From a virus: a stretch of DNA of 46,389 bases. The notes below the pieces were generated by a model. That model saw only the letters and a program-made list of their open reading frames with translations. It did no database searches and was not told the origin of the DNA. The DNA lies in the IMG/VR virus record IMGVR_UViG_3300037852_000077, positions 1 through 46,389 of that record. One strand, 5' to 3'. Shown here in pieces: positions 16,048 to 42,023 of the stretch. Within the stretch, counting starts at the first letter, position 1; every line of letters begins with the position of its first letter. Made by a program: the position numbers and the translations under genes.

Positions 16048-16057
16048 GGAGACCGCG

Positions 16058-20622: not shown

Positions 20623-20639
20623 TGAAAGGAGGCACGAAA

Positions 20640-20846
20640 ATGATTTTACGTAAACAACCGGTCCCAAATGCTATGCGCTGGATCATCGCTGCAGAGCAGA
20701 AGTATGGCATGTACTCGCCAAAGGCAAGCGCGGTTCGCAGGTATTTCATCGGCCAGTTATCACCAGAATTTAAGCAGGTTCCTGTTCCGCAAGAACTGAC
20801 TGACCTTGGCTATAGCTCTGAGAGAGAGACGGAAGATGCTGACTGA
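20640..20846 (+). CDS. Small hypothetical protein
   Basis: ATG 20640 is chosen over GTG 20622 because AAGGAGG lies at 20626-20632. The 68 residues include a helical core with Arg/Lys residues (AEQKYGMYSPKASAVRRYF) and an acidic tail. No recognised domain. It overlaps the LexA-like gene's start by 11 bases. Confidence 0.7.
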   Translation: MILRKQPVPNAMRWIIAAEQKYGMYSPKASAVRRYFIGQLSPEFKQVPVPQELTDLGYSSERETEDAD

Positions 20847-21144
20847 AGCGCAACGCGAAGTGTTCGACGCCGTGGTATTCCTCGCGGCCAAGGAACGGAA
20901 GAGCCCCACCTATAAACAGATTGGAGACAAGCTAGGTCTAAAGTCTCTGAGCACGGTCCACAAGCACATCAATACGCTCATCCGGAAGGGGTTTCTCCTG
21001 CGCCCGTCACCCTACGAGCTACAGATCGTGCCTGCAGCAGCCCGTAATGAGCGGGAATGGCAGACCTGCGACAAAGGCCATCCCCGAATCATGTTCCAGG
21101 TAGCGAACTGCCCTATTTGCATCGTCCGAGAGGTGTCAATTTGA
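20836..21144 (+). CDS. LexA-type helix-turn-helix protein
   Basis: A 102-residue protein. LTEAQREVFDAVVFLAAKERKSPTYKQIGDKLGLKSLSTVHKHINTLIRKGFL (residues about 2-54) closely follows the LexA DNA-binding winged helix, including the recognition helix STVHKHIN. The C-terminal half lacks the LexA self-cleavage domain and instead ends with a CPIC pair and an earlier C-x-K-GH that could hold zinc. It is a free-standing regulator that may read SOS-like operators; targets unknown. Confidence 0.82.
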   Translation: MLTEAQREVFDAVVFLAAKERKSPTYKQIGDKLGLKSLSTVHKHINTLIRKGFLLRPSPYELQIVPAAARNEREWQTCDKGHPRIMFQVANCPICIVREVSI

Positions 21145-21569
21145 GACCGCCATGCGATGAGTGCGCGTTCAGCAAGAAGGGCGCCGGAACAGAGCCGTAC
21201 AATGCTCTCCGGGCTCGCGTCTGTTCCCTCGGTCCGCTTCCGTTCGGCTGCCACCACGGGACCGACTGGCATGGTTCGAGCACCTGGTCGGCAGAGAAGA
21301 CCGCACAAACGCTCCGCACGGTAGGAATCTGCGAGGGTTGGCGATCGGAAGTCAGGCGACTCAATGCCAAGGGGTGGTTCGGCAAGTACCGCGTCATCCG
21401 GAGAGCGGTGGCGAAGCAGGCTCTCTTCTGCATCGAGGTGTTCAATTCCTCAGAGCCGGGCCCGGTCAAAAAGAAATACTTGCGTGCGCTGAAACGTATG
21501 GTCAAATTCTTGGCTGAGAAGGACATTGAACGTAAGAAGATCCCGCTAATCGACTTGTACTTGCCGTGA
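21141..21569 (+). CDS. Cys-rich phage protein
   Basis: A TTG start at 21141 (TTGA overlap, GAGAGG upstream) gives 142 residues. The N-terminus begins PPCDECAFSKK and continues with a second Cys and CHHG, a likely zinc site of the type found in small phage proteins whose N-terminus reads PCxxCPF. The C-terminal half is helical and basic. The function is unknown. An upstream ATG-less extension to 21057 would overlap the LexA-like gene and is unlikely. Confidence 0.7.
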   Translation: MRPPCDECAFSKKGAGTEPYNALRARVCSLGPLPFGCHHGTDWHGSSTWSAEKTAQTLRTVGICEGWRSEVRRLNAKGWFGKYRVIRRAVAKQALFCIEVFNSSEPGPVKKKYLRALKRMVKFLAEKDIERKKIPLIDLYLP

Positions 21570-21622
21570 CCGAGCCGGGATATCTCACGACGGGATGGGG
21601 CGGCTATCCGGAGGAGGAAATC

Positions 21623-21850
21623 ATGGTTTGGGTTGTCCAGTTCACTGCGGAAAATCCCCCGACGTACATCGCGGAAGGCGGTGGGTTGACCTACCAGTTT
21701 GCAAAGGCGAAGGATTTTGGATCGAAAGTAGCAGCCGAAGAGTGGGTAAATAACCACAAAATGCCGGCGACGTGGCAGGCTATCGGACACGCTACTCCTC
21801 CAGCGCCGGCTAAACTAGTTCGAGGGATGCCTCCTCCAAAAATGAAGTAG
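21623..21850 (+). CDS. Small hypothetical protein
   Basis: ATG 21623 with GGAGGAGG directly upstream gives 75 residues; a GTG at 21566 overlapping the previous stop would add 19 residues. The protein has N-terminal strands (VWVVQFTAENPPTYIAE), a helix and a Pro-rich tail. No family recognised. The strong ribosome site decides the start. Confidence 0.68.
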   Translation: MVWVVQFTAENPPTYIAEGGGLTYQFAKAKDFGSKVAAEEWVNNHKMPATWQAIGHATPPAPAKLVRGMPPPKMK

Positions 21851-21861
21851 GTGAGATAACA

Positions 21862-22059
21862 ATGCCCGATCTAATCCAAGACCTTATGCGCGAGATTCAC
21901 CGCGTCGAACAACTCTATCCGTCTTTCGAGGGGGAGGCTCTAGAGAGTGTGAAGCGCAGAGTGGCCTATGCCCAACACGGCCTGGCGATGAACGCAACCA
22001 GGGTAATGAAGGAAAGCCTCCTGGATCTTCAGGACATAATCGAAAAACCGAAACCGTAA
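21862..22059 (+). CDS. Small helical hypothetical protein
   Basis: A 65-residue, mostly helical protein with ATG 21862 preceded by GTGAGA. The heptad-like MREIHRVEQLYPSFEGEALESVKRRV suggests an amphipathic or coiled structure. No motif recognised. It sits near the end of the long early-type gene run. Confidence 0.68.
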   Translation: MPDLIQDLMREIHRVEQLYPSFEGEALESVKRRVAYAQHGLAMNATRVMKESLLDLQDIIEKPKP

Positions 22060-22081
22060 GTCGCATCCGGAGGGGAAACCA

Positions 22082-22288
22082 GTGAGTGAAATGGTAACCG
22101 TAAGTGTGTCCAAACTGAAGTTACTGAAGCTCTTTTACGCCGCTTTCACATCGCTGATGGATGGCCGGCAGCAAATGACCGATGCGGAACTCCTCGACAG
22201 GCTCGAAGGTTTGAGGAGATTGAGAAACGAGCGGGAGGCGCTTGAAGCGGAACTGCGGGAGGACCTGAAGTCTCGAGCGGCTTGTTAG
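22082..22288 (+). CDS. Small hypothetical protein, last gene of the run
   Basis: A GTG start at 22082 follows GGAGGGG; 68 residues. A short N-terminal strand region is followed by a long charged helix (LRRLRNEREALEAELREDLKSRA) that could form a coiled coil. It is the last gene before a 314-base spacer with promoter-like sites. Confidence 0.65.
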   Translation: MSEMVTVSVSKLKLLKLFYAAFTSLMDGRQQMTDAELLDRLEGLRRLRNEREALEAELREDLKSRAAC

Positions 22289-22384
22289 ACCCCCTGCGCC
22301 TGGCACCGAAGACTAGACCGTTTCCACACGCCATATTGGCAATGGGTTGCGCCGATCTTCCCCGCTTCCGCGAATCCTCGGCAC

Positions 22385-22413
22385 CAGTTACAGCAGGAGG
22401 AAGAGGTATAATC
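22385..22413 (+). promoter_or_regulatory. Promoter-like block 1 (GGTATAATC)
   Basis: CAGTTACAG at 22385 is followed by GGTATAATC, with TATAAT at 22407-22412. A second copy with identical spacing lies 64 bases downstream. The gap between the GTTRCA box and TATAAT is shorter than the usual sigma70 17-base spacer. Confidence 0.5.
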
Positions 22414-22448
22414 CTCCCAAAGCCCGCCATGGTCTGTTCATTTTGAGA

Positions 22449-22477
22449 CAGTTGCATGAACCTGGGACGGTATAATC
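22449..22477 (+). promoter_or_regulatory. Promoter-like block 2 (GGTATAATC)
   Basis: CAGTTGCAT at 22449 and TATAAT at 22471-22476 repeat the arrangement of the block at 22385. Transcription from it would begin about 22483, just before a nested hairpin. Confidence 0.5.
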
Positions 22478-22483
22478 GACCCT

Positions 22484-22539
22484 ATGAGCGCCACCGCATA
22501 ACGCTTGCCCCCTCCCCAAGCAATACTCTTCTGTGGCGC
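22484..22539 (+). other. Nested hairpin in leader RNA
   Basis: GCGCCAC (22488-22494) pairs with GTGGCGC (22533-22539), enclosing a second stem GCTTG/CAAGC (22503-22507 with 22517-22521). A five-codon reading ATG...TAA (22484-22501, MSATA) overlaps the 5' arm. It sits just downstream of TATAAT, so it may be a structured leader; no known RNA family recognised. Confidence 0.4.
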
Positions 22540-22560
22540 ATACTGGCACACTCTGATATA
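22534..22560 (+). promoter_or_regulatory. TGGC tandem element, copy 2
   Basis: TGGC at 22534 and TGGCACA at 22544 are spaced ten bases apart and followed by TCTGATATA. The copy at 29300 is nearly identical (ACTGGCACA, one mismatch, TCTGATAT). Likely a regulator site or phage-specific promoter. Confidence 0.55.
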
Positions 22561-22571
22561 GTTTTTTGCAA

Positions 22572-22910
22572 ATGAGCAACCCATCCGGAAACGGAAATAA
22601 ACATGCCCAGGACCATTCAGTGGAAGACCCCTCTCGAGATACAGGAGTACCTGTGGCTGGACAACGCGCTAGTGCGCCCGGAGGACCTGGCGACCGCGGA
22701 AATAATCGATTGGCGGCAGCCGGCCTTCCAGTCAACACCGGCTATGGATCTGATGTTCTCCCCGGAAAACCTGCTGTACTACCTGCGCCGGCCGTAAAAC
22801 ACATAGCTACATCCGATTGGCATACCTGTCTCTGCGCGAGCTGCACGGCGCACCGCGGACGGGCCAAGCTGGCTATCGGGGAATACTCTAAGAAGAAGAA
22901 TCAAAAATGA
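22572..22910 (+). CDS. Possible small protein in alternative frame
   Basis: ATG 22572 lies a few bases after the TGGC element with no ribosome site, giving 112 residues. The first two thirds overlap the 22603 gene in another frame and have less G/C in third positions, so they may be a shadow. The final third (HTCLCASCTAHRGRAKL, 22811-22910) has coding-like composition and paired cysteines, and no rival gene covers it. It may be a separate gene with an unusual start. Low certainty. Confidence 0.35.
   Translation: MSNPSGNGNKHAQDHSVEDPSRDTGVPVAGQRASAPGGPGDRGNNRLAAAGLPVNTGYGSDVLPGKPAVLPAPAVKHIATSDWHTCLCASCTAHRGRAKLAIGEYSKKKNQK
22603..22797 (+). CDS. Small hypothetical protein
   Basis: ATG 22603, 64 residues. 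Most codons end in G or C, like the rest of the window, which favours this frame over the overlapping one from 22572. The ribosome site is weak (GGAAA). The sequence has aromatic and hydrophobic residues (IQEYLWLDNALV, LMFSPENLLYYL) consistent with a small helical protein. It is the first gene after the promoter-rich spacer. No family recognised. Confidence 0.55.
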   Translation: MPRTIQWKTPLEIQEYLWLDNALVRPEDLATAEIIDWRQPAFQSTPAMDLMFSPENLLYYLRRP

Positions 22911-22926
22911 ACCCCCGGCAGGAACA

Positions 22927-23211
22927 ATGTTTTTCCGCATGTTAGTGGGCAGGATGATTTCCTACACTTGGGAGAAACCTGCTCCTTTTAGTAGCAAGCC
23001 ATGGGTGCCGCTGGTTCACGAACAAGGTATCCCCCTCAAGACCTGCAAGCACCATCCCAAGGTTGTTTTTGATGGACAGGAGTGCCCTGGTTGCCAAGCT
23101 GAGAAAGAGATTCCCACATCCCTATCTGTGGACGCTAGTTCGTTGAGTACACACGTCAAACATCGAACCATCCACAGTTTCCACAGGACTCACAACAACA
23201 AGAATACTTAA
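22927..23211 (+). CDS. Small Cys/His protein before candidate origin
   Basis: ATG 22927 follows CAGGAA; 94 residues. CKHHPKVVFDGQECPGCQ in the middle is a likely zinc-binding knuckle. The last 30 residues are Ser/Thr/His-rich and are encoded by the region of TGTGGA repeats, so the true functional end may be earlier than the stop. No enzyme motif is seen. Its location next to the candidate origin allows a DNA-binding role, but this is speculation. Confidence 0.55.
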   Translation: MFFRMLVGRMISYTWEKPAPFSSKPWVPLVHEQGIPLKTCKHHPKVVFDGQECPGCQAEKEIPTSLSVDASSLSTHVKHRTIHSFHRTHNNKNT

Positions 23212-23340
23212 GATAACCCTTGTTGTGATAGAGCCTTTTTACTGTGGAAAACTTAGAGGAAATGTGGAAAAGAGGATAGTTGATTGACTCAGTTTGGCAT
23301 TAGGAGTAACTTTCGAACCGTCCAAACTGTGGACTGAGGA
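23111..23340. other. Candidate replication origin: DnaA-box-like cluster
   Basis: Six TGTGGA/TCCACA sites occur within about 210 bases: + strand at 23127, 23243, 23263 and 23328, - strand at 23171 and 23180. Five read CTGTGGA. The ones at 23243 and 23263 read TGTGGAAAA, which fits the relaxed DnaA box TTWTNCACA on the other strand. The middle (about 23200-23240) is A/T-richer than its surroundings. The stretch 23212-23351 has no gene. No initiator gene was recognised beside it. Confidence 0.45.
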
Positions 23341-23351
23341 GAAAGGGGAAG

Positions 23352-24161
23352 ATGGCCGATACGATTCACTTCAAAGACCTGATAGCAGCCGGGCTTGCCG
23401 GCGCCAAGAGCAACACTCAATTTTACCTAAACGCAGAGAAGTACCGCCGAGCCGAGGCGTTCAAGAAGGACGGGTTTAAGACTTGGGAGGCCTGCCTGGC
23501 GAAGCTCATCAAGAAGATTCGGCGGTCTCGATCGGGAGTGATGGCGAAGATGGCGCAGGTACGCCTTCTCCTGGATACCAAGAAAGTCAGTTTCGCGCAG
23601 CTCGAGCAGATGGGTGACGCAAACGCGACGATGCTTTGCCGTGTTCATCGCGTCAAAGGGTTGAGTGCCGCATGGATAAAAAGAGCGTTAACGATGGACG
23701 TGGAGAAGTTCAAAGCGGCAGTCCTCAAGGCGGTGAAGCCGAGCGAGGAACCCAAGCGTCACTTGACCTTCGTGGTGGTGCAGAGCCTATTCGTGGAAGT
23801 GATGAGCATGATCGGCAGAATCCAGACGTTGGTAAAGCTGAACACCAAGGAGGGGGCGCTAGACTTCATAGTGGCCGATTATTTGACGAAGGACGACTCG
23901 GAAATTCTGCAGGCGGCGGGGGAGGGAAGCCAGCTAAGCGAAAGGTTGGAACGAGTCCGACAGCAAGAAGCCTCAAGCACTACAAAGGCGAAGGCTTCAC
24001 GACCGCGCAAGTCGAAAGATGGAAGCCAATCCCGCGTCTCAACAAGGCCACGGGGAAAACGGACCTCTTCCCGTATGGAGTCCGCGTCGACGTCTTCGGT
24101 TTCGGGGACCTCCTCATCTGCAAGCCAGGTTGGGGCATCGGCCTCGTCCAATGCTGCATAG
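23352..24161 (+). CDS. Unknown protein, N-terminal part of a probable frameshifted gene
   Basis: ATG 23352 follows GAGAAAGGGGAAG. The first about 190 residues are a helical, basic domain (LIKKIRRSRSGVMAKMAQVR, then FVVVQSLFVEVMSMIGRIQTLVKL) with coding-like codons. After about 23920 this frame turns into a Ser/Arg/Thr-rich low-complexity tail, while another frame begins to encode a nuclease-like domain. The tail is probably not the natural C-terminus. It is the first gene after the candidate origin, so a replication role for the N-terminal domain is possible but unsupported by any motif. Confidence 0.7.
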   Translation: MADTIHFKDLIAAGLAGAKSNTQFYLNAEKYRRAEAFKKDGFKTWEACLAKLIKKIRRSRSGVMAKMAQVRLLLDTKKVSFAQLEQMGDANATMLCRVHRVKGLSAAWIKRALTMDVEKFKAAVLKAVKPSEEPKRHLTFVVVQSLFVEVMSMIGRIQTLVKLNTKEGALDFIVADYLTKDDSEILQAAGEGSQLSERLERVRQQEASSTTKAKASRPRKSKDGSQSRVSTRPRGKRTSSRMESASTSSVSGTSSSASQVGASASSNAA

Positions 24162-24325
24162 GCGCACACCACGCCGCGAGGCGGGTGAAGATCAGAACGG
24201 AGTGCGTTTGGGAGTTTGACGAGTGGAGGGCAGCCGGCGGGCGCGTGTTAATCATGTCCTGGGACAAGCAAGGACCGCGGGGGCAGCGTAAGACCTGGAC
24301 CTTTTGGGAGGAAGAGCTTTTGTAG
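23921..24325 (+). CDS. Nuclease-like domain reached by -1 frameshift
   Basis: From about 23921 the -1 frame reads GGKPAKRKVG and then GFTTAQVERWKPIPR, VDVFGFGDLLICKPG, GLVQCCIGAHHAARRVKI and AAGGRVLIMSWDKQG. This matches a widespread phage group with a PD-(D/E)XK-like core (Asp in FGFGD, Gln in LVQ in place of Glu). Third positions are G/C-rich from about 23970 on. No start codon exists close upstream in this frame. The likely route is slippage at the G-run 23918-23922 from the gene at 23352, or a base missing from the sequence. The coordinates give the in-frame portion only. Confidence 0.6.
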   Translation, partial: GGKPAKRKVGTSPTARSLKHYKGEGFTTAQVERWKPIPRLNKATGKTDLFPYGVRVDVFGFGDLLICKPGWGIGLVQCCIGAHHAARRVKIRTECVWEFDEWRAAGGRVLIMSWDKQGPRGQRKTWTFWEEELL

Positions 24326-24422
24326 ACTTTGTGGGCGCCTGTGATGCTGACGCGCGACTCTGGCGACAGAGTGGAAGTTTTCGGCATGGGACGGGCGCCT
24401 TCCCTTTGAAAATGGAGGAGAG

Positions 24423-24710
24423 ATGCACTACATCGCAAACCCGGTAATAGCGGAAGCGTTCAAGATCAAGTCGATCGGCCCAATCAACACAGACGGTGGC
24501 CGGCAACTTATCTTAGACAACGAAAGTAGAGTGACAGCTACCGCGGAGATGATGGCCCGCATGAACCCCCAGATTGACGATTTTTGGGTTATTCAGAGCG
24601 ACGGGTACATCTACCTGAACCCACAGCACGTCTTTCTCCGGAAGTACAGCGAGGCTGTCCAGGGACCTGACGGAGAGTGGAAGCGAAGGGACAAGGCAAC
24701 CTCGGCATGA
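24423..24710 (+). CDS. Small phage protein
   Basis: ATG 24423 follows GGAGGAGAG; 95 residues. MHYIANPVIAEAFKI at the start, a short strand block, and a long middle (DDFWVIQSDGYIYLNPQHVFLRKY) suggest a small alpha-beta protein of a type common in phages near tail or modification genes. No function is known to me. It overlaps the next start as ATGA. Confidence 0.75.
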   Translation: MHYIANPVIAEAFKIKSIGPINTDGGRQLILDNESRVTATAEMMARMNPQIDDFWVIQSDGYIYLNPQHVFLRKYSEAVQGPDGEWKRRDKATSA

Positions 24711-25111
24711 ACGAACTCATCGCCAAAGGTGCGGACGGTCAAACCGTTCTAATCCTCGTTCTTGAACCGGGCAACATCAACCTGCTCCGCGAGGGCAGGC
24801 CGATCGACAAGCGCATCCACGACTATTTCCCGGACGGGATTCCTCGAAAGCTCGAGCTGGTAATCCATTACAGCGAGACGCCGCTTGCCGACAGCAAAGC
24901 ATTCGCCAAAATGTCGAAGATGACGTTTGACGAGCGCAGCTCCAAGAAGGTTCGCCCGCATTGTCCGGAGTGCAAATCCACGATCGAGCAGCTAGGTGTG
25001 TGGAGAAACGAATCTCGTATGGCGTTGACGTTCTGTTCTCAATGCGGTTGTATCTTCGGAATGGTCCCTACCGAGGTTGCCAATGCGCTTTCACTCCCAA
25101 AACCTGAGTGA
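24707..25111 (+). CDS. Protein with C-terminal zinc ribbon
   Basis: ATG 24707 in an ATGA overlap; 134 residues. The N-terminal 60 residues are strand-rich (TVLILVLEPGNINLLREG). The C-terminal part has CPEC (about 86-89) and CSQC (about 112-115), the two knuckles of a zinc ribbon. It may bind nucleic acid or a protein partner. No family name can be given. Confidence 0.75.
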   Translation: MNELIAKGADGQTVLILVLEPGNINLLREGRPIDKRIHDYFPDGIPRKLELVIHYSETPLADSKAFAKMSKMTFDERSSKKVRPHCPECKSTIEQLGVWRNESRMALTFCSQCGCIFGMVPTEVANALSLPKPE

Positions 25112-25850
25112 GAATCACGACGGCAGTACGCCGCGGAGTAAGTTCTGGAACGGGCGATGCTGGCTGCACTTCGAGACATTCACCATAGGCCTCGAGTGGA
25201 GCTTTCTGGTGTCTCGTCTGAGCATCGGTATCGGGCTCGCAGACTACGACCACGCGCTTTCTGGTCATTTCTGCATTGGCCGGGTGAATCTCTACTGGCA
25301 CCTTGAATACTTCCCTCTCTACCGCTGGCTCGAACACAAGATCAAGCGCCCGGACCAGAAGTACGGAAATGGCCGAACCATCGGGTTCTACTGGTTGGAC
25401 GGAAGCCTCTCAATCGACCTGTGGCACGACCCCATGGAGCACCGCCGCGCCGATCCCAAGTGGTGGCACTTCTACATCACTCCTCGAGACATTCTCTTCG
25501 GGCGACCGGTCTACTCGGAACGCGTCCTGAAGACCTCCCGCGTCGAGGTTCCCATGCCGGAAGCCGTCTATCCGGCTGAAGTGAAGATCGAGGAAGCTAC
25601 CTGGAAGCGCCCGCGCTGGCCTTGGCCGTTGCGCCGTATCCGCGCAAAGATCACTCCGGACACGCCGATACCATTCCCAGGCAAGGGCGAGAACTCCTGG
25701 GACTGCGGCGAGGACGCGACTCACTCAATGACCTGCAACGCGACGAACGAGCAGGAAGCGGTTGCCAAGCTGGTAGCCTCGGTCCTGAACGATCGGTACA
25801 GGCACGGCGGAAAAAACTGGCGGCCGGCGGCGGTGAAGCATGGCCGATGA
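25083..25850 (+). CDS. Trp/Tyr-rich phage protein
   Basis: ATG 25083 (GAGG upstream, 28-base overlap with the previous gene) gives 255 residues. The first 150 are unusually rich in Trp, His and Tyr (for example KWWHFY) in a strand-loop pattern, followed by a Pro/Arg linker and a short helical C-terminal domain starting near CGEDATHSMTC. No membrane segment or catalytic triad is obvious. Similar proteins exist in other phages, but I cannot name a function. Confidence 0.75.
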   Translation: MRFHSQNLSENHDGSTPRSKFWNGRCWLHFETFTIGLEWSFLVSRLSIGIGLADYDHALSGHFCIGRVNLYWHLEYFPLYRWLEHKIKRPDQKYGNGRTIGFYWLDGSLSIDLWHDPMEHRRADPKWWHFYITPRDILFGRPVYSERVLKTSRVEVPMPEAVYPAEVKIEEATWKRPRWPWPLRRIRAKITPDTPIPFPGKGENSWDCGEDATHSMTCNATNEQEAVAKLVASVLNDRYRHGGKNWRPAAVKHGR

Positions 25851-29351: not shown

Positions 29352-29693
29352 ATGCGAACCAGTAGAGACGTGTTCAATGTTCATGGTGTTTTACTTCACG
29401 GCTTCGATTACGAAAACCAGGCATGGGTTGAGAACGGGAAATACCTCCGCTGCGGTCATCCGGATCCGATGGATTGCGGCTGCTTTGGCAGGTTGCACGA
29501 AGGCGAATCTGTGACTCCGCGAGTGGTGTCGATCGATGTCTTAAAATTCCCGCACGGAATTTCCTGTCCAGACTGCCGAGCAGCGAATCGGTGCAATCAA
29601 TGCGGCAAGAGTGCTACCAGGCGAGACCGCTGCACGAATGGCCGTTGTCCAGGTTGCTGCTTAATCCACTGCAAACACATGGAGCAAGTATGA
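29352..29693 (+). CDS. Cys-rich zinc-binding protein
   Basis: ATG 29352 follows AAGGAG; 113 residues. An N-terminal globular part carries CGHPDPMDCGCFG, and the C-terminal half has five further pairs or triples (CPDC, CNQC, RCPGCC and a CKH) suggesting two zinc ribbons. It heads a block preceded by the TGGC element. Nucleic-acid or protein binding is likely; no family named. Confidence 0.8.
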   Translation: MRTSRDVFNVHGVLLHGFDYENQAWVENGKYLRCGHPDPMDCGCFGRLHEGESVTPRVVSIDVLKFPHGISCPDCRAANRCNQCGKSATRRDRCTNGRCPGCCLIHCKHMEQV

Positions 29694-30079
29694 TCGACCC
29701 AATAACACCTAAAGAGATCGAAGCCTTGAGTGAGATGTTGGACCTCGCCATTGGAGATCAAGAGGACTATCTCAACCATGGCGACCCACTAATAGACTAC
29801 GGCGCGGAGTGGCCTGATACCGCGAAACACAAGGCAGAACGTTTTAGACTGGTTGCTGGTTTCCTAATGAGACTCGGATTGCGCGGCCAATGGCAACGTT
29901 TGGCAGACTTGGCACTCGAGATGGAAGCCAGCGGGCGGGTGTACGAAGCGAACAACAACGACAACCGACGCGACACTATGGAGTTTTCCGAAACTCCCGC
30001 AGGGTACGATGCCCGCGATCGGTGGGCGAAGCGTTACGACGAATTGAACGGTGCACCGGAAAGCGACAACGATCAGTGA
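29690..30079 (+). CDS. Acidic helical hypothetical protein
   Basis: ATG 29690 overlaps the previous stop (GGAGCAAG upstream); 129 residues, acidic, mostly helical (EIEALSEMLDLAIGDQEDYLN, KAERFRLVAGFLMRLG). No motif or membrane segment. A longer upstream reading would overlap the zinc protein in another frame and is unlikely. Confidence 0.72.
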   Translation: MIDPITPKEIEALSEMLDLAIGDQEDYLNHGDPLIDYGAEWPDTAKHKAERFRLVAGFLMRLGLRGQWQRLADLALEMEASGRVYEANNNDNRRDTMEFSETPAGYDARDRWAKRYDELNGAPESDNDQ

Positions 30080-32550: not shown

Positions 32551-33066
32551 ATGAGAAAACAGCGTAACGCAGCAAAACCGAAGAAACGTAAGTGGGGAGC
32601 TAGAACCGGGACCGGTAAGAAGAAGCGGAAGCTATACACTCCTCGCACAAAGCAGTTAGCCGCGGTGCAGCTATTCGTCTCCGGAAGCAAGTACGCCGAG
32701 ATCAGCAGGAAGCTAGGCCTCGACCGCGAAACCGTTGTCCGCATCGTCACCCAAGAAGAAGTTCATGCCATGGTCGAGGGATTCCGGGAAGCCGTCCTCA
32801 AGATGGTTCCGAACGCCCTGGTAGCTCTGGCACGATTGATAGACATTGGAGACCGGACCGCGGTTATCGAGTGCCTGTACGGCGCCCGCGTCTTAATCGA
32901 TCGGCACGAAATTGCTCCCGAAGCCGAGGAACCTGTGCGAACCTACGACTCTACCAGGGTGCTGTTCTTCGGAAAATTCGGTAGGTGGCCGAGGGATGAG
33001 GAGTTAAAGGCGTTCGATAAGACGATTCCGACAAAGCCGATCGTCAAAGGAGAGTTTACGAATTGA
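32551..33066 (+). CDS. Candidate small terminase subunit
   Basis: ATG 32551, 171 residues. A basic N-terminus (RKQRNAAKPKKRKWG) leads to a helix-turn-helix: KQLAAVQLFVSGSKYAEISRKLGLDRETVVRIV, then a long helical domain. This fits small terminase subunits, which bind pac or cos DNA and hand it to the large subunit. Its position just before the methyltransferase and the terminase halves supports the call, although a plain DNA-binding protein remains possible. The ribosome site is weak. Confidence 0.68.
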   Translation: MRKQRNAAKPKKRKWGARTGTGKKKRKLYTPRTKQLAAVQLFVSGSKYAEISRKLGLDRETVVRIVTQEEVHAMVEGFREAVLKMVPNALVALARLIDIGDRTAVIECLYGARVLIDRHEIAPEAEEPVRTYDSTRVLFFGKFGRWPRDEELKAFDKTIPTKPIVKGEFTN

Positions 33067-34769
33067 TCCTTAGAGACCCTGATTTGGCAAAGGTTCTCGA
33101 GAAAGAGGCTTTTACGGTCGATCCATTCAAGCGAGATCCCCACGTCCTGGCCGAGCGGTGGACCGGCTGTTACGAATCCTCCCGCGGCGATATCTTCACC
33201 AAGGAGTCTAACCGGCATCCCGCGAAGATGGCAGTGGGGCTCTGCTACCGGATATTCCAGCACGGCGAGGAGATGGGTTACTGGAAGAAGGGCGACGTCA
33301 TCCTCGACCCGATGGCCGGGATTGGGACGACTCTCGTTGTGGGCGCCACACTTGGCTACCGCACGATCGGCGTGGAGCTAGAACGCCATTTCGTGGAGCT
33401 CTGCGAGCAGAATATCCAGTTCTCGGAGAACTTCTGGCACACCATGGGCTTCGCGGTAGTGATTCAGGGGGATGCGCGGTTCCTCCCGGAATGTGTGCTG
33501 TCTCCCGAGCTGACGAACGGGTTAGTTACTTCCCCGCCCTACGCCGACATGGGCATGGCCTCTGCTATTTGCGGCAAAGCCAGAAAGCTCTACCGGGATG
33601 GCAAGGTGGACGAGGCCTTGGCGGTCCTGCGGGAGCAAGAGGAGAAGGAGATTGCAGCGGGGTGGACGAGATCCCCGCGGAGCGAGGAGTTTCTGCTGAC
33701 GCAGTTGAAGAACGACGCAGAGTGGGCTAATGGCTACTCGGGCGCCGTTTCTAGTCCACCCTACGCCGACTCTGACCTAACCGTAGGAGGACATTTCCGG
33801 TCACGCCGCGAGCCGGAAGCTGCTGCAGTCAGTTCCAACGACCACGCCGGCTATAGCGGCATTGACTCGGAGAAGGAGAAGAAGCTCTCAGGCGTAAACG
33901 CGCAGCACAAGATCCCGCAGCGTTACGATGGCGTGGTGAACTCCCCTCCATTCCTTATGCCGGCGGGCGGCGGCAAGGGGATAGCAAAGACCGGCCATCG
34001 ATTCGACCCTGGCCTCGCCAACCGTCAGTACGTCCCCGAGCAATTCAGCAAGAACGGAGCACAGATCGGAAACCTCAAAGACCCGAAGGGGGATATCGAC
34101 GCGGTGCTCTCGAGCCCGCCGTACCAAGATCAAATGTCCGCAGCTCGAGCTAGAGGACGCGGACCTACCGGTGACAAACTCATTGCTCAAAAGAAGATCG
34201 AGCACAACAAGATGGGCGACGGGCCCGACCAGATCGGAAACCTCCACAGCAAGGACGGCGATTTAGACGCGGTTCTATCCTCCCCGCCGTATGCGACACG
34301 AATGGATGGTGGAGGAATTGCCAAGAAGGGGCAGTTCAAGCCATACACCAACGAACCATCGGACACTTGGCATACGCAGCGTAACCCGGCAAATATCGGT
34401 AACCTGATGGATGAGAAGCACCGCGACGGGCGCGAAAGCTACCTCTCGGCCATGCTGAAGGTGTACGAGCAGATGTATGCTGTTCTCAAACCTGCCGGCG
34501 TGGTGGCTCTCGTCACCAAGAACCCGGTAAAGGACAAGCAGATCCGGCGCCTTGACCTGGACACCATTGCTCTCATGGAACACGCCGGCTTCCTGCTGAT
34601 TGAGCACAAGTGCGCGATGCTCTGCGATGAGGTGCAGCACGGCCATCTATTCGGCGGGGATGAGATCAAGAGGCGGCAGCGCAAGAGCTTCTTTAAGCGG
34701 TTGTACGAGAAGAAGTTTCCGGAGCTTGCCGTCGATTTCGAGGACGTGACTTTTTATAGAAAGGTGTGA
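33063..34769 (+). CDS. DNA methyltransferase with five SPPY/F motifs
   Basis: TTG 33063 overlaps the previous stop (TTGA); 568 residues. Motif I is DPMAGIGTT (82-90), preceded by RHPAKM (51-56) and followed by TIGVELERHF, the SAM-binding half of an amino-methyltransferase. The catalytic motif IV occurs five times: TSPPY (156-160), SSPPY (230-234), NSPPF (293-297), SSPPY (350-354) and SSPPY (406-410). The last repeats share a unit reading IGNL..GD.DAVLSSPPY. Ordinary enzymes have one such motif. A SAM-dependent N4-C or N6-A DNA methylation role is likely; the use of the extra motifs is unknown. It sits between the two terminase subunits. Confidence 0.9.
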   Translation: MILRDPDLAKVLEKEAFTVDPFKRDPHVLAERWTGCYESSRGDIFTKESNRHPAKMAVGLCYRIFQHGEEMGYWKKGDVILDPMAGIGTTLVVGATLGYRTIGVELERHFVELCEQNIQFSENFWHTMGFAVVIQGDARFLPECVLSPELTNGLVTSPPYADMGMASAICGKARKLYRDGKVDEALAVLREQEEKEIAAGWTRSPRSEEFLLTQLKNDAEWANGYSGAVSSPPYADSDLTVGGHFRSRREPEAAAVSSNDHAGYSGIDSEKEKKLSGVNAQHKIPQRYDGVVNSPPFLMPAGGGKGIAKTGHRFDPGLANRQYVPEQFSKNGAQIGNLKDPKGDIDAVLSSPPYQDQMSAARARGRGPTGDKLIAQKKIEHNKMGDGPDQIGNLHSKDGDLDAVLSSPPYATRMDGGGIAKKGQFKPYTNEPSDTWHTQRNPANIGNLMDEKHRDGRESYLSAMLKVYEQMYAVLKPAGVVALVTKNPVKDKQIRRLDLDTIALMEHAGFLLIEHKCAMLCDEVQHGHLFGGDEIKRRQRKSFFKRLYEKKFPELAVDFEDVTFYRKV

Positions 34770-35855: not shown

Positions 35856-36329
35856 CAAATTCGCAGGGATGAAGCACAAGTTATGTTTGATATTTTCGAG
35901 AACTGGCCTACTACGGCTTCTACTCGCAGAGCGATGCAACAGCACATCCTGGGGCTTCAAATTAAGCTAGATGCTGCCATTGCCGCCGCCCAGCCCGTCC
36001 CGGCAGAGGGGGCGCAGGCGGCACAATTTGCTCTAGAGCGCGACCGCACAAAGGTCGCTGAGTGTGTGACTAGGCTTAAGCACACGCTTGAGAATTATCA
36101 CTGGCTGATCGAAGGACGTGGAAGCTACGAATGGGACGATGACCGCTGGCATCAAGAGTTCAAAACAGTCTGCGAGTTACTGCAAAAAGACCTAGAACCG
36201 ATGGTCCGTATCGCAGCGGACTGGTCGAACTGCCCGACGAAGTGGGAAGACGTTCAGGCGGCCCGGGCCGCCCCTCCAGCTACGGCAGCGCCAGCGGGCT
36301 ATCCAAAGCCTACGAAGCCAGCGGAATGA
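35847..36329 (+). CDS. Helical hypothetical protein
   Basis: ATG 35847 inside the 25-base repeat gives 160 residues. Helical in most of its length with Trp/Tyr in YHWLIEGRGSYEWDDDRWH and an Ala/Pro-rich tail (AAPPATAAPAGYPKP). No domain recognised. It ends in an ATGA overlap with the terminase gene, so it may be an accessory packaging protein. Confidence 0.72.
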   Translation: MDEQIRRDEAQVMFDIFENWPTTASTRRAMQQHILGLQIKLDAAIAAAQPVPAEGAQAAQFALERDRTKVAECVTRLKHTLENYHWLIEGRGSYEWDDDRWHQEFKTVCELLQKDLEPMVRIAADWSNCPTKWEDVQAARAAPPATAAPAGYPKPTKPAE

Positions 36330-37045
36330 GCACCGCGACCATCAGCGCCTATCGCTTCGACCGGGATACCCTCCTCCGTAGGCAGGACCTCACGATCGAC
36401 TGTATGGCGCGTGGGATAGAGGGACCAGACGGCTACTGGATTCCCGGACCGTTGTTCTGGATGAACACACTAACGCAGACGTTCGACCCCCACTACCTCG
36501 ACAAAGGCTTGGCGTCCCCACACCGCACCTTCCCGCAGATGCCCTATATGTCTTGGCTGTTCTCGAGGCTGCTCACGGAGTCGATCGTCTTCATTCCAAA
36601 AAGCCGCGAGATGCTTCTCTCCTGGGCGGTCATCGGCTATTGCGTGTGGCGTTGCCAGATTTTCCCCGGTACACAGGTGCTCGTTCAGTCCCAAAAGCAC
36701 GATAAGGCGTGCGAGCTGGTCAAAGGAACGGAACCTCCGGGGTACGCCTACACTCTCTACGACCGGCAAGACTCTTGGCTGAAGAAGCGATACCCGCTGG
36801 CGATGCGAGCGGAAGACCTGCCGGCTGACAACGTGGTATGGGCGAACCATTCCGAGATTCAGGCGATCGGGAGAGGCGCCGACCAAGTTCGCCAGTACCA
36901 CCCCACCGTCTACGTGGTTGACGAGATGGCGTTCATGGAGGAAGCTGCGGCCAGCTTTGGGGCGGCTACGCCTGTAGCCAAGCAGATAATCTGCGTTAGC
37001 TCCGCTGGACCGGGTTTTTTCGGAGACATATGCAGCGAGGATTAG
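36326..37045 (+). CDS. terL: Large terminase, ATPase half (split)
   Basis: ATG 36326 in an ATGA overlap; 239 residues. It shows the packaging-motor ATPase: a Walker A-like PKSREMLLSW (91-100), strand and helix order as in large terminases, Walker B VYVVDE with the catalytic Glu (195-200), and the coupling motif VSSAGPG (224-230). It then stops at ICSED, without the nuclease domain. The nuclease half lies 1.6 kb downstream (38655). The first P-loop residues are unusual (no GKS/T), as in other phage terminases with a KSRxM form. Whether the two halves work as separate chains is not known. Confidence 0.85.
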   Translation: MSTATISAYRFDRDTLLRRQDLTIDCMARGIEGPDGYWIPGPLFWMNTLTQTFDPHYLDKGLASPHRTFPQMPYMSWLFSRLLTESIVFIPKSREMLLSWAVIGYCVWRCQIFPGTQVLVQSQKHDKACELVKGTEPPGYAYTLYDRQDSWLKKRYPLAMRAEDLPADNVVWANHSEIQAIGRGADQVRQYHPTVYVVDEMAFMEEAAASFGAATPVAKQIICVSSAGPGFFGDICSED

Positions 37046-37878
37046 TTCAGATCGAGCAGCCGGGACCGATCATTCGGGTGTTTCCGATCCGAACCAGCTA
37101 TACGCCAAACGATGAGTGGGCGTTCGTTGGCTTCCCAACCTTGTTTCCCCCTGGCACGCGCCAAACTCCTGTTCACGTCAGCGTGGTTTTCAAATGGTGC
37201 AGAGACCTGGCCGAGAAGATTGCTGCGTCCTGGCGCGATCATTACGACACCGTTCTAATCGGCGGGCCGGCCTACGGCGACTATGGCGACGACTTCACTC
37301 CAGGGATGTATATGAAGCACGGCTGCACCATCACAAGCCGCGGTTGCGTGAAGCATTGCGGTTGGTGCCCAGAGAAGGACCGTCCCCTCCGCGAGCTGGC
37401 CGTCAAACCAGGTTGGATAGTCCAGGATTCGAACCTCCTCGCGTGCTCTGAGCGCCACGTTCGCGCCGTCTTCGACATGCTCCGGGAGCAAGATCGATCG
37501 ATTACCTTCTCCGGAGGGCTCGACAAGCACTTCCTAAAGCCATGGCACAGGGAACTGTTCGACTCCATCAAGATCGAGGCTCTGTGGTTTGCCTGCGATA
37601 TCACCAGCGACCTGCCCTGGCTCGAGAAGGCTGCCGAGATATTGGAAGGAATTCCGACCGAGAAGCTCCGCTGCTACACGATGATCGGCTATGACGACGT
37701 GCCCGAGCCGTTAGATGTGGCCGAACATCGTATCGAGCGAGTCTTTGAACTGGGGTTCCTGCCGTTCTGCCAGCTATACAAGCCCGACGACTACGTGAAG
37801 ATTTACCCGCCAGAGTGGAAAGCCGTTCAACGCAAGTGGGCTAGGCCGGCAGCGTACCGACCTAGGAAGACGGCATGA
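37030..37878 (+). CDS. Radical SAM protein inside the terminase gene
   Basis: ATG 37030 (CGGAG upstream) overlaps the end of the ATPase half by 16 bases; 282 residues. The 4Fe-4S motif CVKHCGWC (C106, C110, C113) gives the CX3CX2C of radical SAM enzymes, preceded by ITSRG and followed by LRELA, DSNLLACS and FSGGLDKHFL. SAM-radical enzymes of this type are widespread in phages; the substrate is not known, and methylthiolation or RNA/DNA modification are possibilities. It is the first gene of the 1.6 kb insert in the terminase. Confidence 0.85.
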   Translation: MQRGLVQIEQPGPIIRVFPIRTSYTPNDEWAFVGFPTLFPPGTRQTPVHVSVVFKWCRDLAEKIAASWRDHYDTVLIGGPAYGDYGDDFTPGMYMKHGCTITSRGCVKHCGWCPEKDRPLRELAVKPGWIVQDSNLLACSERHVRAVFDMLREQDRSITFSGGLDKHFLKPWHRELFDSIKIEALWFACDITSDLPWLEKAAEILEGIPTEKLRCYTMIGYDDVPEPLDVAEHRIERVFELGFLPFCQLYKPDDYVKIYPPEWKAVQRKWARPAAYRPRKTA

Positions 37879-38189
37879 CTCCTCCCGCGGTCCTTATCGA
37901 GTGCCTCGACCAGTTCAAGAAGGATTGGTTCTCCAAGACCTGTCCCAACTGCGGTAATGACAAGTGGAAGAACTCACCATTCTGCCGGCGCTGTTCTATC
38001 CGCCTGCAGCGCAAGAACCTGATTGGAGGGTTCAAGACCTGGACCGGGCACAGCATGGCGGCGAACATCAGATTCTTCTGCAAGGATGGATACGTCTATC
38101 CGATTGAACGCTGGATAAGGTGGTACGACCGCTGCCGAGACTATCTGGGAGTGAGTGAACATGAGAGAAATTGCGCTGACGCAGGGTAA
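37875..38189 (+). CDS. Zinc-ribbon protein next to radical SAM gene
   Basis: ATG 37875 overlaps the radical SAM stop as ATGA; 104 residues. CPNCGNDKWKNSPFCRRC is a two-knuckle zinc ribbon near residues 23-40, followed by a basic helix and a Trp/Tyr-rich end (WIRWYDRCRDYLG). It may be an accessory or partner of the radical SAM enzyme; no family named. Confidence 0.75.
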   Translation: MTPPAVLIECLDQFKKDWFSKTCPNCGNDKWKNSPFCRRCSIRLQRKNLIGGFKTWTGHSMAANIRFFCKDGYVYPIERWIRWYDRCRDYLGVSEHERNCADAG

Positions 38190-38655
38190 GGTTGCTCTTG
38201 TAGACGACGAGGACTTTGAGCGGTTGTCTCAATTCAACTGGTGCGCTTATAAGAGCAAGAAAACTTGGTACGCCATGCGAGCAGTTAAGGTCGGCCACAA
38301 TGCCTACAGATGCTTGGACATGCACCGCGATATTCTTGGCCTTCAGTTTGGTGATGGGGTAAAGACTGACCACAGAGACGGAAACGGATTAAACAATCTT
38401 AGAGCCAACATACGCAGGTGTTCGAGCCTACAGAACCGCAGGAATTTTCCAGGATATTCGGATAGAAGGCGTTCCAACTTCAAGGGAGTTAGCTACGACA
38501 AAAACTGTCCCGGAAGACCTTGGAGAGTCCGGATACGGATAGGCACGATCAGGCATTACGTCGGGAGATTTGATGACGAACAGGCCGCCGCTGTGGCTTA
38601 TAACGAAGCTGCCACCATCCACTTTGGCGAGTTTGCTTGGCTCAACAAAGTCTAA
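38161..38655 (+). CDS. HNH-AP2 homing endonuclease
   Basis: ATG 38161 (GGGAG upstream) gives 164 residues and overlaps the previous gene by 29 bases. The HNH part has the HxxRD...TDHRDGNGLNNLRANIR layout (about 53-88). A C-terminal AP2-like DNA-binding domain follows (SNFKGVSYD, then RPWRVRIRI, HYVGRF, YNEAATIHFGEFAWLN). Proteins of this type cut an empty allele and promote their own spread. It is the last gene of the insert that splits the terminase, and its stop overlaps the nuclease-half start (TAATG). Confidence 0.88.
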   Translation: MREIALTQGKVALVDDEDFERLSQFNWCAYKSKKTWYAMRAVKVGHNAYRCLDMHRDILGLQFGDGVKTDHRDGNGLNNLRANIRRCSSLQNRRNFPGYSDRRRSNFKGVSYDKNCPGRPWRVRIRIGTIRHYVGRFDDEQAAAVAYNEAATIHFGEFAWLNKV

Positions 38656-39659
38656 TGAGCGATTACGTCACTCTAGACGATGTAAGGAAACCAATCGGGA
38701 AAATGCCTGGATTGCCGTATGGGTGCGATGAGTGGACCGAAACCGATCACGGATACAAGATTCTAAGAGTCCACTATTCGGCTGACAGGTCCAAAACTCC
38801 AGCATGGGCGGAACTACAGAAGAAGAAGAGCCCCTCCGAGAACACCTTCCGCAGAGAATTCGAGATCGACCACTACGCCGGCAGTGGCGCGGCCATGTAT
38901 CCGGAGTTTAGCCGCGGGTTGCATGTCGTCAGACCGTTTCCCATTCCGCACCTCTGGACTCGGTATATGTTCATCGACCCCCACAAACGCCGGCCGCACG
39001 CCTTCCTGTGGATGGCAGTGTCTCCGGATGGAGACCACTGGTACTACCGCGAGTATTGGCCGAGCCGCGTCTACGGCAAGAAGGGCGACACCCCGGAGGA
39101 CGACAAGCTCTACAAAGTGGACGAATACGTTCAGGCACTCAAATACATGGAAGGGCCGGATATCAAACACTTCTCTTCCGGAGGCTTCGCGGACAACCAG
39201 GGGCAGACCGAGAAGATCCGCATACGGGTAATGGACACGCACGGCAAAGCCATCTTCACCACCACGACCGCGGGGAAGGATGAACCGGAGACGTTCTGGG
39301 ACCGCTACGAGAAACTTGGCATACGTTGCGTCGAGGCCATCAAGGATGTTGGTTCGGGACGTGACACGGTGGGGATGCGCCTACGACCGCGCAAGGTCAT
39401 GCTTCCTTCAGGCGAAGCTGAAGAGGCAATCATTCATATATTCGACACACTTCCGGAGTTGATTCTCGAGTTGCGGTCGGTGCGCTGGCCGAGTTTGACT
39501 CCGGAGCAGGCAGAGAAGATGGATCCCACCGACAAGGTAATGCAGAAGCGATGCCACATGACAGACCTGATTCGGTACGGCGAGATGCTTGACCCCATTT
39601 ACGTTGGACCGGCGCAGGCGCGGAGTCTCAATCCTGTGCAAGAGGGCATCAGCTATTAG
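38655..39659 (+). CDS. terL: Large terminase, nuclease half (split)
   Basis: ATG 38655, 334 residues. It begins SDYVTLDDV and GYKILRVHYSAD, the linker usually found between the terminase ATPase and nuclease domains. The RNase H-like nuclease follows: FIDPHKRRPHA with the first metal Asp (108), a GFADNQGQTEKIRI block, and a later acidic/GRDTVG region. This half cuts the DNA concatemer during headful or cos packaging. It has no ribosome site of its own and relies on the TAATG overlap with the HNH-AP2 gene, so its expression depends on the insert. Confidence 0.85.
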   Translation: MSDYVTLDDVRKPIGKMPGLPYGCDEWTETDHGYKILRVHYSADRSKTPAWAELQKKKSPSENTFRREFEIDHYAGSGAAMYPEFSRGLHVVRPFPIPHLWTRYMFIDPHKRRPHAFLWMAVSPDGDHWYYREYWPSRVYGKKGDTPEDDKLYKVDEYVQALKYMEGPDIKHFSSGGFADNQGQTEKIRIRVMDTHGKAIFTTTTAGKDEPETFWDRYEKLGIRCVEAIKDVGSGRDTVGMRLRPRKVMLPSGEAEEAIIHIFDTLPELILELRSVRWPSLTPEQAEKMDPTDKVMQKRCHMTDLIRYGEMLDPIYVGPAQARSLNPVQEGISY

Positions 39660-39660
39660 A

Positions 39661-39691
39661 TTGACAATCCAGTGAGCCGGTAAGCTAGACT
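39661..39691 (+). promoter_or_regulatory. Sigma70-like promoter before portal gene
   Basis: TTGACA (39661) and TAGACT (39686) are 19 bases apart. The layout is shared with the site at 46347. Confidence 0.5.
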
Positions 39692-39712
39692 CTGGACGGT
39701 AGAGGAAACGGG

Positions 39713-39757
39713 ACCTCGGCATCCTTCGGTTGTCATCGGTCCGAAGGTTGCCGGGGT
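39713..39757 (+). other. Strong hairpin in portal gene leader
   Basis: ACCTCGGCA (39713-39721) pairs with TGCCGGGGT (39749-39757) with one wobble, and CCTTCGG (39723-39729) pairs with CCGAAGG (39741-39747); a single T-T mismatch separates the stems, and the loop is 11 bases. No T-run follows, so it is not a standard terminator. It lies 14 bases before the portal start, which lacks a clear ribosome site. Confidence 0.7.
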
Positions 39758-39770
39758 GCGAATCTAAATT

Positions 39771-42023
39771 ATGGCAATATCTGCCACGGCAAACCCCACC
39801 GAGAACAAATCCGCTGCAATCATCGGCACCGGCCAAAGCGTGATGACCGAGGCCGAGCGCAACAAGGTCGAGGAAACCCGCGAGAGAATCAAAGCAAGCG
39901 CGGCGTGGCTTCACGACAACTTTTGGGGTGAGTGGCAGGAAGCCTTCCGGTCCTACGAAGTAAAGACAGAAAAGCTCATCTATCCTCCTGGGCATCCTCA
40001 AGCTGGCAAAGAAGACAAGACGCGCACGAACATCGCCATGCCTGAGATGTTTGTCGGAATTCGGAAGAAAGCCGTCCGCAAAAGCCGCCGGCCGCCCAAC
40101 ATCAACGTTCGATCTTCCGATCAGCAGATAGGAGACTTCCTGTCTCACATGGCAACCGTCCAGTGGGACCGCGCCGGCGAGCAGAAGTTTCAACGGCGCC
40201 ACGTTCTTCAGGGAGACTTGTTCGGCATTTCGATCAAGCTCCATTACTACGACCAGGTAAGCCAGCAAAGGAGCTTGCGCTTCTCTACCGATAAGATTCT
40301 CAAAGAGCTTTACGTCAAGATCGATGAGAACGACAAGACGCGGAACAACTGGGTAATGGCCGATGAGGATGACAAGCGATCAGTCCGCGCTTCTCGGCTG
40401 AACGAGCAGGACCGGGCGAACGTGATGGCGAGTCTGGGACCGGAAGTGAGCCAGTCAAAGAACTTCACGCGGTTCGACGGGCCGGTATCGGAGTGGAAGT
40501 TTATCGGAGACTGGTACCCAGAGCCCGAGTTTGACGCCGTGCAGTCCTCGGCTTGGCATGTCTTCGAGGGCATCAAGGACGCGGAATGGCTGGCCTACAT
40601 GGCAAGCCAGAAATTCACCGACCCGGAGACCGGCAAGAGGCGTCCGATCATCGATCCGAAGTTTCTAGGCGAACTCGAGACCTATCGCCCGCTGGACACC
40701 ATGAACAAGAGCGAGGTATCGGGCGCCGAGCGCGACTTCAAGCAGACCCTTCGAGACGTCATCTTCAAAGCCCGGCCATCCTTCGAAGCGAGATTGATTC
40801 CTGGGCGCCGATACCTCATCCACCAGGACTACACCTTCCGCAAGGGGTTTTGCTGGATACGCTTCATCGGGAACGAGAAAGTGTTCTTAGGCGAGATGCC
40901 GCTACCATGGGACCTCGGCGGGCGCTATCCGATCAGCACCTATTGTCCGATGCCGTCCCTGCTGCAAGGGATTGGAGACTCGACGGCACGCAAAGGCCGG
41001 CACCTCTGGAAGCTCCACAACATCACCGTCTCGCAGCGCACCGACCTAATAACGAACGCTCTCAAGAAGCTGGTTGCGCTTCCCAAAGGCGCCGATATCC
41101 CTCCCGAGATCATGGATCTCGGCCTGTTCCGCGTCCTTTTCAGCGACAACTACCGGGAGATCATTGCGGCGTTCCAGGCTGCCGGCCCACAGGTTCCCGC
41201 GCAAGCGTTCGAGCAGGAAGCTGCAGTAATGCGAATGCTTCAAATGGTCGAGCCATCGATCATTGATTTCGGGGAGCAGAGCCAGGCTGTACCTAACACC
41301 GGAAAGACCGCAACCCTCGGCATCCTTCAGCAGCGATCGGCGGACGGCATCAGCGGGGACGAACTCGAATGCCTGAACGACTCGATTGCCGAGGAGACCG
41401 ATATCAAGCTGTCCATGTGGCAGCAAGTCTTGAACGAGCGCGAACTAGAAAGCCTGAGACAGAGTTTCCAGAAGAGTACGTTCTGGACGATCAGCACCGC
41501 GGGCGGGCCGGATAAGCCTCGCCTGATGTTTGACGACCCCCTCGAGCTGCAGGTTGATTTCGAAGTAGAACCCGAGATGGGGAGCACGCTGGCGCTGGAT
41601 GACGCCATCAAGAAGAACCAGGCGCAGGAGATTTACGATCGGGCAATCGCTGCCCCTACCGTTTGGAACGTCCAAGAGGCTGCTCTACGGTTGGCGCGTG
41701 CGTCCGGGGTGTCAGAGCCAGATAAGCTCATGGCACCCCCGCCGCCGCCACCGCCACCGCCACCGCCGCAAGAACCGAAGATTTCCGGCACGGTCAATGT
41801 CAAGGTCGAGGCCGACGTGGAAACGAGCCATGTCTTAATGTCCAAGGTGTTCGGCATTGCCCCGCCGTCTCCGCAAGACACGGAAGTAGCGCAGGCTCAC
41901 GAAAAGCTCGCGGAAGCCGCAGAGAGCGCGAAGCACGCCAGATTCCTCCTGGGAGAAGACCCGGACGAGGTTGCTGCCGCCCAAGGGAACAACGGCGCGG
42001 GTGGACCGCCGGCAGGCCCGTGA
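39771..42023 (+). CDS. Portal protein
   Basis: ATG 39771, 750 residues. The order is that of podovirus-type portals: an N-terminal helical part with ERNKVEETRERIKASAAWLHDNF, then TNIAMPEMFVGIRKKAVRKSRRPPNIN, a long middle with QRRHVLQGDLFGISIKLHYYD and further strand/helix segments, and a C-terminal region with a run of about 12 prolines (near 41735-41769) before a final helical tail. The portal forms the packaging and ejection channel at one vertex. Its position right after the terminase halves fits. The poly-Pro run is unusual but within one frame. Confidence 0.82.
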   Translation: MAISATANPTENKSAAIIGTGQSVMTEAERNKVEETRERIKASAAWLHDNFWGEWQEAFRSYEVKTEKLIYPPGHPQAGKEDKTRTNIAMPEMFVGIRKKAVRKSRRPPNINVRSSDQQIGDFLSHMATVQWDRAGEQKFQRRHVLQGDLFGISIKLHYYDQVSQQRSLRFSTDKILKELYVKIDENDKTRNNWVMADEDDKRSVRASRLNEQDRANVMASLGPEVSQSKNFTRFDGPVSEWKFIGDWYPEPEFDAVQSSAWHVFEGIKDAEWLAYMASQKFTDPETGKRRPIIDPKFLGELETYRPLDTMNKSEVSGAERDFKQTLRDVIFKARPSFEARLIPGRRYLIHQDYTFRKGFCWIRFIGNEKVFLGEMPLPWDLGGRYPISTYCPMPSLLQGIGDSTARKGRHLWKLHNITVSQRTDLITNALKKLVALPKGADIPPEIMDLGLFRVLFSDNYREIIAAFQAAGPQVPAQAFEQEAAVMRMLQMVEPSIIDFGEQSQAVPNTGKTATLGILQQRSADGISGDELECLNDSIAEETDIKLSMWQQVLNERELESLRQSFQKSTFWTISTAGGPDKPRLMFDDPLELQVDFEVEPEMGSTLALDDAIKKNQAQEIYDRAIAAPTVWNVQEAALRLARASGVSEPDKLMAPPPPPPPPPPPQEPKISGTVNVKVEADVETSHVLMSKVFGIAPPSPQDTEVAQAHEKLAEAAESAKHARFLLGEDPDEVAAAQGNNGAGGPPAGP

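Follow-up and report, generated by a model that had tools for sequence, protein, structure and literature searches.

An apparently old two-gene large terminase in a group of mostly soil phages, with gene turnover between its halves and a probable homing endonuclease

How does the large terminase subunit (TerL) of a phage come to be encoded in two separate pieces with three further genes between them? The question is raised by IMG/VR virus record IMGVR_UViG_3300037852_000077, positions 1 to 46,389 of which form the 46,389-nucleotide stretch analysed here and referred to as the window. A preliminary description of this DNA proposed that a single 1.6-kb insert carrying three genes had broken the terminase. 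We agree with it that the terminase is in two pieces, that the ATPase half ends with ICSED and the nuclease half starts with M followed by SDYVTLDD, and that three complete genes lie between them; the five open reading frames (ORFs) are all present at the positions it gave. Our analysis leads to a different history. We consider it very likely that TerL is here a two-gene enzyme, split long ago in the linker between its domains, that the interval between the halves is a cargo site with gene turnover, and that the HNH endonuclease found there entered by intronless homing. The five ORFs form one closely packed string of overlapping genes:

36326..37045, + strand: ATPase half of TerL, 239 aa; the stop comes directly after motif III, behind the C-terminal end SSAGPGFFGDICSED
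37030..37878, + strand: radical SAM protein, 282 aa; its ATG falls within the ATPase gene, an overlap of 16 nt
37875..38189, + strand: Cys-rich zinc-ribbon-like protein, 104 aa; ATGA start on the radical SAM stop
38155..38655, + strand: free-standing HNH endonuclease with a C-terminal AP2-like domain, 166 aa; overlaps the zinc-ribbon gene
38655..39659, + strand: nuclease half of TerL, RNase H-type, 334 aa; its ATG shares TAATG with the HNH stop

A GTG at 36242, upstream, is a second in-frame start for the ATPase half.

Are the two pieces really the halves of a terminase? The ATPase half matches the terminase large subunit family phrog_5989 (E 6e-4) and, weakly, the sequence of T4 gp17; the ATPase halves of relatives match phrog_5989 and phrog_2 far better (1e-20 for contig L044) and also match Terminase_6N. 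The window protein carries the Walker B motif VVDE and the motif III SSAGPG of a TerL ATPase. Its Walker A motif is deviant, PKSREMLLSW (window 36599-36628), and free of glycine, and the same glycine-free type, KSR(E/Q/T)M(M/L)xSW, occurs in most of the relatives with a split terminase. For the nuclease half, a single-sequence search returned nothing, and neither window half had a match in Pfam or NCBIfam. A profile of the nuclease half weakly matches the terminase of phage D6E, and its AlphaFold model (mean pLDDT 71) matches the D6E TerL (E 7e-10) and the P22 nuclease domain (E 6e-7). With D107 and D303 conserved across alignments, it has the marks of an RNase H-fold nuclease; the nuclease halves of relatives match phrog_5653 (7e-22). 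This last family is one of several short PHROGs terminase families that each cover one half, phrog_5653 (199 positions), phrog_7579 (239), phrog_10250 (228) and phrog_6672 (145), none of which was returned by the single-sequence search with the window nuclease. Since these families match single halves, domain-sized terminase proteins are already catalogued; the catalogue is silent on the split and on the cargo of the interval. Among isolated phages, the ATPase half found no match and the nuclease half partial matches only, and a scan with the ATPase-half profile mostly retrieved unrelated fused terminases.

Both halves appear to be under purifying selection: between the window and its relative L007, dN/dS was 0.18 for the ATPase half and 0.08 for the nuclease half, values that are approximate, with dS near saturation. 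A near-identical relative of the window, G004 (61,249 bp, comprising L163-L166), has a 97-bp terminal direct repeat and is probably a complete circular assembly. Its whole record holds a single ATPase match and a single nuclease match, and no intact TerL was seen elsewhere in it. Given one ATPase, one nuclease and low dN/dS, the split pair is most likely the working terminase.

Is the split as young as the genes that now fill it? The preliminary description held that these three genes had created it. Separate halves are, however, found throughout the clade of the window and in distant relatives, many of them without cargo. In L007 (ATPase 65%, nuclease 79% identical) the same two genes lie 4.4 kb apart, and in L009 (48% and 54%) they lie 3.9 kb apart, each time with other cargo between them. 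After further relatives had been collected by profile scans and near-copies removed, separate halves were counted in 54 contigs (L156 and the fused L212 stand outside this count). Cargo lies between the halves in 34 of these, over intervals of 700 nt to 5.4 kb, and the halves of the other 20 are adjacent or overlapping. The two domains, which in TerL share one polypeptide, are thus on two ORFs in the window and in all 54. The carriers are a large group of mostly soil phages and include contigs of metagenome-assembled genomes (MAGs) assigned, as binned, to Bacillota, Synergistaceae and Eremiobacterota. ATGA overlaps join the adjacent halves of L052, L209, L210, L211, L214 and L215, and TAATG overlaps those of L160 and L213; with overlaps of 1-4 nt, there is no space for an insert or an intron in those relatives. 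The preliminary description had named relatives in which the halves are always separate genes without any insert as a finding that would count against it. About 20 contigs are of this kind, although "always" does not hold, the others having cargo.

On the nuclease tree, the clade of the window comprises 31 cargo-bearing rows and one adjacent row, L041 (SH-aLRT 92), and most adjacent types fall outside it; intervals in this clade hold 1.2-5.4 kb of varying cargo. At least three changes between the split and fused states are needed, the deep order being unsure from long branches, so that single or multiple origins, or refusions, are possible. Uninterrupted terminases, which the preliminary description had proposed to look for, were found in L156 (SSAGPGWFAEQCQSATDVYKRDLPKG...VHYSADP) and L212 (STANPGFFYSATTKAKEQARSE...RVHYSADP). 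Their counterpart in the window is the ATPase end SSAGPGFFGDICSED and its stop, then the nuclease MSDYVTLDD...VHYSADR, an alignment that places the break in the interdomain linker, directly after motif III. By this distribution the split is old, and relatives carry the halves as separate genes. The fused terminase of L156 (2431-4635), an Acidobacteriota MAG contig, has an N-terminal IS66/IS3-type helix-turn-helix, and the same contig holds a second, nuclease-only ORF (7758-8957).

What, then, of a single recent 1.6-kb mobile element that carried all three genes into an intact terminase? Fused relatives exist, the word AGCGA stands at both borders (AGCGA at 37034, AGCGAT at 38658), and the halves join in frame across it as C-S-D-Y. 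Both words are indeed there, but they do not mark a single insertion. Relatives whose downstream DNA is quite different have the ATPase stop at this very point (after CSEE in L007 and after ECSQ in L173), and an allele that has no HNH gene, described below, reads GATGAGCAC at the nuclease start instead of AGCGAT. AGCGA was considered as a target-site duplication and rejected, being conserved neither in the HNH-less allele nor among relatives. Since the radical SAM relatives L011 and L017 encode (L)LVQI/GLVQL N-terminally, GGATTAGTTCAGATC, directly after the left AGCGA, appears to be coding sequence of the radical SAM gene in which the ATPase stop happens to lie. Nor is it borne out that the nuclease half needs the insert for its start codon, as had been supposed; a separate ATG is present in the HNH-less allele (L008 2214). 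The cargo does not travel as one unit either: relatives are split with different cargo or none, the HNH gene is missing where the radical SAM and zinc-ribbon genes remain, and a zinc-ribbon homologue lies in the L007 interval without a radical SAM gene. Taken together, the HNH-less allele and the cargo-free split relatives refute the single element, and we attach hardly any probability to it.

Could splicing instead rejoin the terminase, the interval being a group I or II intron with internal genes? Spliced terL genes are documented in ICP1 (PMC10448857), Bastillevirinae (PMC11878797) and Campylobacter phage IBB_35 (PMC3322345), and intron RNAs may be too diverged for Rfam. Yet there was no Rfam match in the window up to E 5, nor in ten relatives at the gathering score, and no ribozyme structure was found to span the insert. 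Moreover, the overlapping, packed genes leave a ribozyme little space, and the relatives whose halves overlap cannot hold one. We consider an intron very improbable, and with neither intron nor intein in evidence from these searches we share the earlier view that the locus needs neither.

How did the HNH gene come to lie in the interval? That it encodes a homing-type endonuclease, as first described, is borne out: it matches the HNH endonuclease family phrog_99 (E 3e-24) and 69 phage records, with at most 46% identity to Bacillus phage HNH endonucleases. The gene is present in the window and in L003, and absent from L008/G004 and L004, where the radical SAM and zinc-ribbon genes are retained (contig L004 begins inside the former). 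Given that G004 and L004 are near-identical to the window, the cargo was filled in at least two steps, and the HNH gene represents an event separate from the arrival of its neighbours rather than part of one insert. Each allele comes from two metagenomes (HNH+ in the window and L003, HNH- in L004 and L008), so that an assembly error is unlikely. Presence or absence at one site among near-identical genomes is the pattern of a free-standing homing endonuclease.

The DNA on both sides of the gene bears on its arrival. Compared in 50-bp windows, the window and G004 are 100% identical over 36300-37900 and 38850-40400; the left stretch of identity extends to 37928, and the right one starts at ~38820 and runs for more than 1.5 kb. 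Between these points the window differs from L008/G004 by ~22% over the 230 bp before the HNH gene and by ~30% over the ~165 bp after it, and both flanks are seen in L004 too:

37929..38820, no strand assigned: putative co-conversion tract; the HNH gene with ~230 bp to its left and ~165 bp to its right, diverged from L008/G004

Repair of a double-strand break from a diverged donor leads to co-conversion of the flanks (PMC2988022). A short diverged tract centred on the HNH gene is as expected from homing with co-conversion, which, while not proven by it, is its most likely source; the HNH gene is probably a recently arrived, selfish homing endonuclease. The alternative is that the diverged flanks reflect ordinary mosaicism, the HNH segment having been swapped by homologous recombination without endonuclease action. 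Further diverged patches between the window and G004 fit this account; against it, the tract is short and centred on the gene, and other indels of the same genome pair (18556-19194 and 29568-29949) have flanks that are 100% identical; we think it possible, though on balance unlikely. Several observations nonetheless weigh against the history that we favour. The two genomes show mosaicism in other places (93% identity over window 1-14826) and a methylase gene near 34.2 kb also has diverged flanks relative to G004, so that the HNH tract could be ordinary recombination. The HNH-less flank is barely closer to L007 (41 versus 37 of 62 residues), which leaves the ancestral allele indecisive. Finally, the contigs are metagenomic.

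Might the HNH protein serve packaging, in the manner of HK97 gp74 or the Skunavirus HNH protein encoded beside terL? It sits between terminase genes, and packaging HNH proteins are known beside terminases (PMC10448857, PMC12724721). A gp74-type protein is a conserved companion of the terminase across a lineage, however, and the L007 and L009 intervals showed no such gene, while its absence from the near-identical G004 and L004 indicates that it is dispensable. The AP2-like C-terminus and the affinity to phrog_99 also point away from a cofactor, as does a decayed HNH-AP2 copy elsewhere in the genome:

42508..42757, + strand: decayed remnant of a second HNH-AP2 gene, 50% identical to the HNH C-terminus, between structural-region genes

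In G004 the first codons only of this second gene are present, ATGAAAACCATTTCCCTCACACAAGGG, reading MKTISLTQG. A packaging role seems to us improbable, and we retain the reading of a homing endonuclease. Elsewhere in the window, a DNA methylase gene (33063-34769) contains some five copies of an SPP[YF] motif. G004 lacks the repeat region near 34248-34438 and is diverged on either side of it, which suggests a change in copy number. About 15.4 kb of G004 (9706-25147) are missing from the window.

What are the other two cargo genes doing at a terminase? A radical SAM enzyme in this place was called unexpected, and we concur. The protein matches phrog_9298 (E 3e-14), and its cluster motif CX3CX2C (C106, C110, C113) is invariant in 15 sequences. 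The top PDB matches of its AlphaFold model (pLDDT 83) were MgmA, AprD4 and HemN, the best with E 4e-3 and none below 0.001, and these weak matches pointed to no function; the motif and a partial TIM barrel place it in the radical SAM superfamily. Relatives 58-79% identical occur in other soil phage contigs, mostly among early or replication-type genes (DnaB-, RusA- and RuvC-like, judged by eye). A role as terminase partner was considered and rejected: just one relative contig, L024, has the terminase halves, and there the gene lies outside the interval. The radical SAM gene is an accessory gene of an ordinary kind, oddly placed. The zinc-ribbon-like protein has weak Pfam zinc-ribbon matches, every one under the cut-off; besides the L007 interval, homologues occur in L006, beside the nuclease gene, and in G004/L004. 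In L048, which shares its contig with L024, a short ORF between the halves (6778-6953) resembles the start of a DNA methylase (SPPYWGLRKYAG) and is possibly decayed cargo.

A different kind of cargo occupies the interval in a sister clade (L042, L074, L167-L204). Many interval proteins there have the C-terminus [F/Y/L][F/Y]G[E/D/G], in most cases preceded by a basic stretch, with variants such as FYGE, FFGE and FYGG (for example L042 5721-6839, L074 7889-9383, L173 5184-6802 and L201 5707-6978). Counted by a fixed regular expression, picked after the tag was first noticed, it ends 56 of 194 interval proteins, as against 5 of 448 other co-directional ORFs at the same loci and 1 of 831 ORFs at unrelated terminase loci (Fisher p 2e-26 and 1e-42, overstated since related contigs are not independent). 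Single-linkage clustering of the tagged proteins without their last 15 residues yields 16 families, DUF6496 and, below cut-off, DUF3008 among them. Across whole contigs the tag clusters in the interval, several genomes having one further small tagged protein elsewhere; it is absent from the interval proteins of the window, G004, L007 and L009. One could imagine the interval as a locus devoted to proteins that accompany packaging, the tag directing unrelated small basic proteins to the head or motor, but we find this doubtful, and a sorting role for the tag is a guess. The T4 capsid targeting sequence is N-terminal, and the FYGE tag would be a C-terminal counterpart.

How would such a locus work and evolve? 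In the history that we favour, the ATPase motor and the RNase H nuclease would be made as separate proteins from two genes within seemingly one translationally coupled string, and would come together on the portal for DNA packaging and cutting. With contiguity of the domains no longer required, insertions between the halves would be tolerated, and in the clade of the window this spot has become a cargo site with gene turnover. The HNH-AP2 gene would then have entered by intronless homing, carrying diverged flanking DNA along.

There are precedents in split nrdA, split gene 43 and intronless homing (PMC2988022). As in split nrdA and gene 43, an essential phage enzyme is here divided between two genes, with a homing endonuclease encoded between them; unlike in those cases, the enzyme is the large terminase, the split extends across many lineages and several cargo genes share the interval. 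In contrast to the nrdA type of Aeh1, the endonuclease is not the splitter, the split persisting without HNH in G004 and in cargo-free relatives. For gene 43, the possibility has been raised that the endonuclease invaded an already split gene (PMC2988022). Presence/absence, insertion between genes, a TAATG-type overlap and diverged flanks recall T4 SegF, SegG and MobE (PMC2988022), whereas our putative homing endonuclease is of the HNH-AP2 type. In the intron- or intein-interrupted terminases of ICP1 (PMC10448857), SIOphi (PMC11878797) and IBB_35 (PMC3322345), terL is a homing target, as here; those are rejoined by splicing, whereas our searches returned no splicing element and the halves are distinct genes even when overlapping.

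A search of the open-access literature, outside which most subscription papers lie, turned up no account of a two-gene TerL that spans a lineage and encloses cargo. Tailed phages are found and classified by TerL as a hallmark gene taken to encode a single chain; where a whole lineage has two genes instead, its phages can be misread or missed. The split TerL is also a natural system in which to ask whether motor and nuclease need to be tethered. The HNH+ and HNH- sister genomes provide direct evidence for a possibility raised for other phage enzymes, namely invasion of an essential gene by a homing endonuclease after the gene had been split, and accessory genes can now also be sought in the terminase interval.

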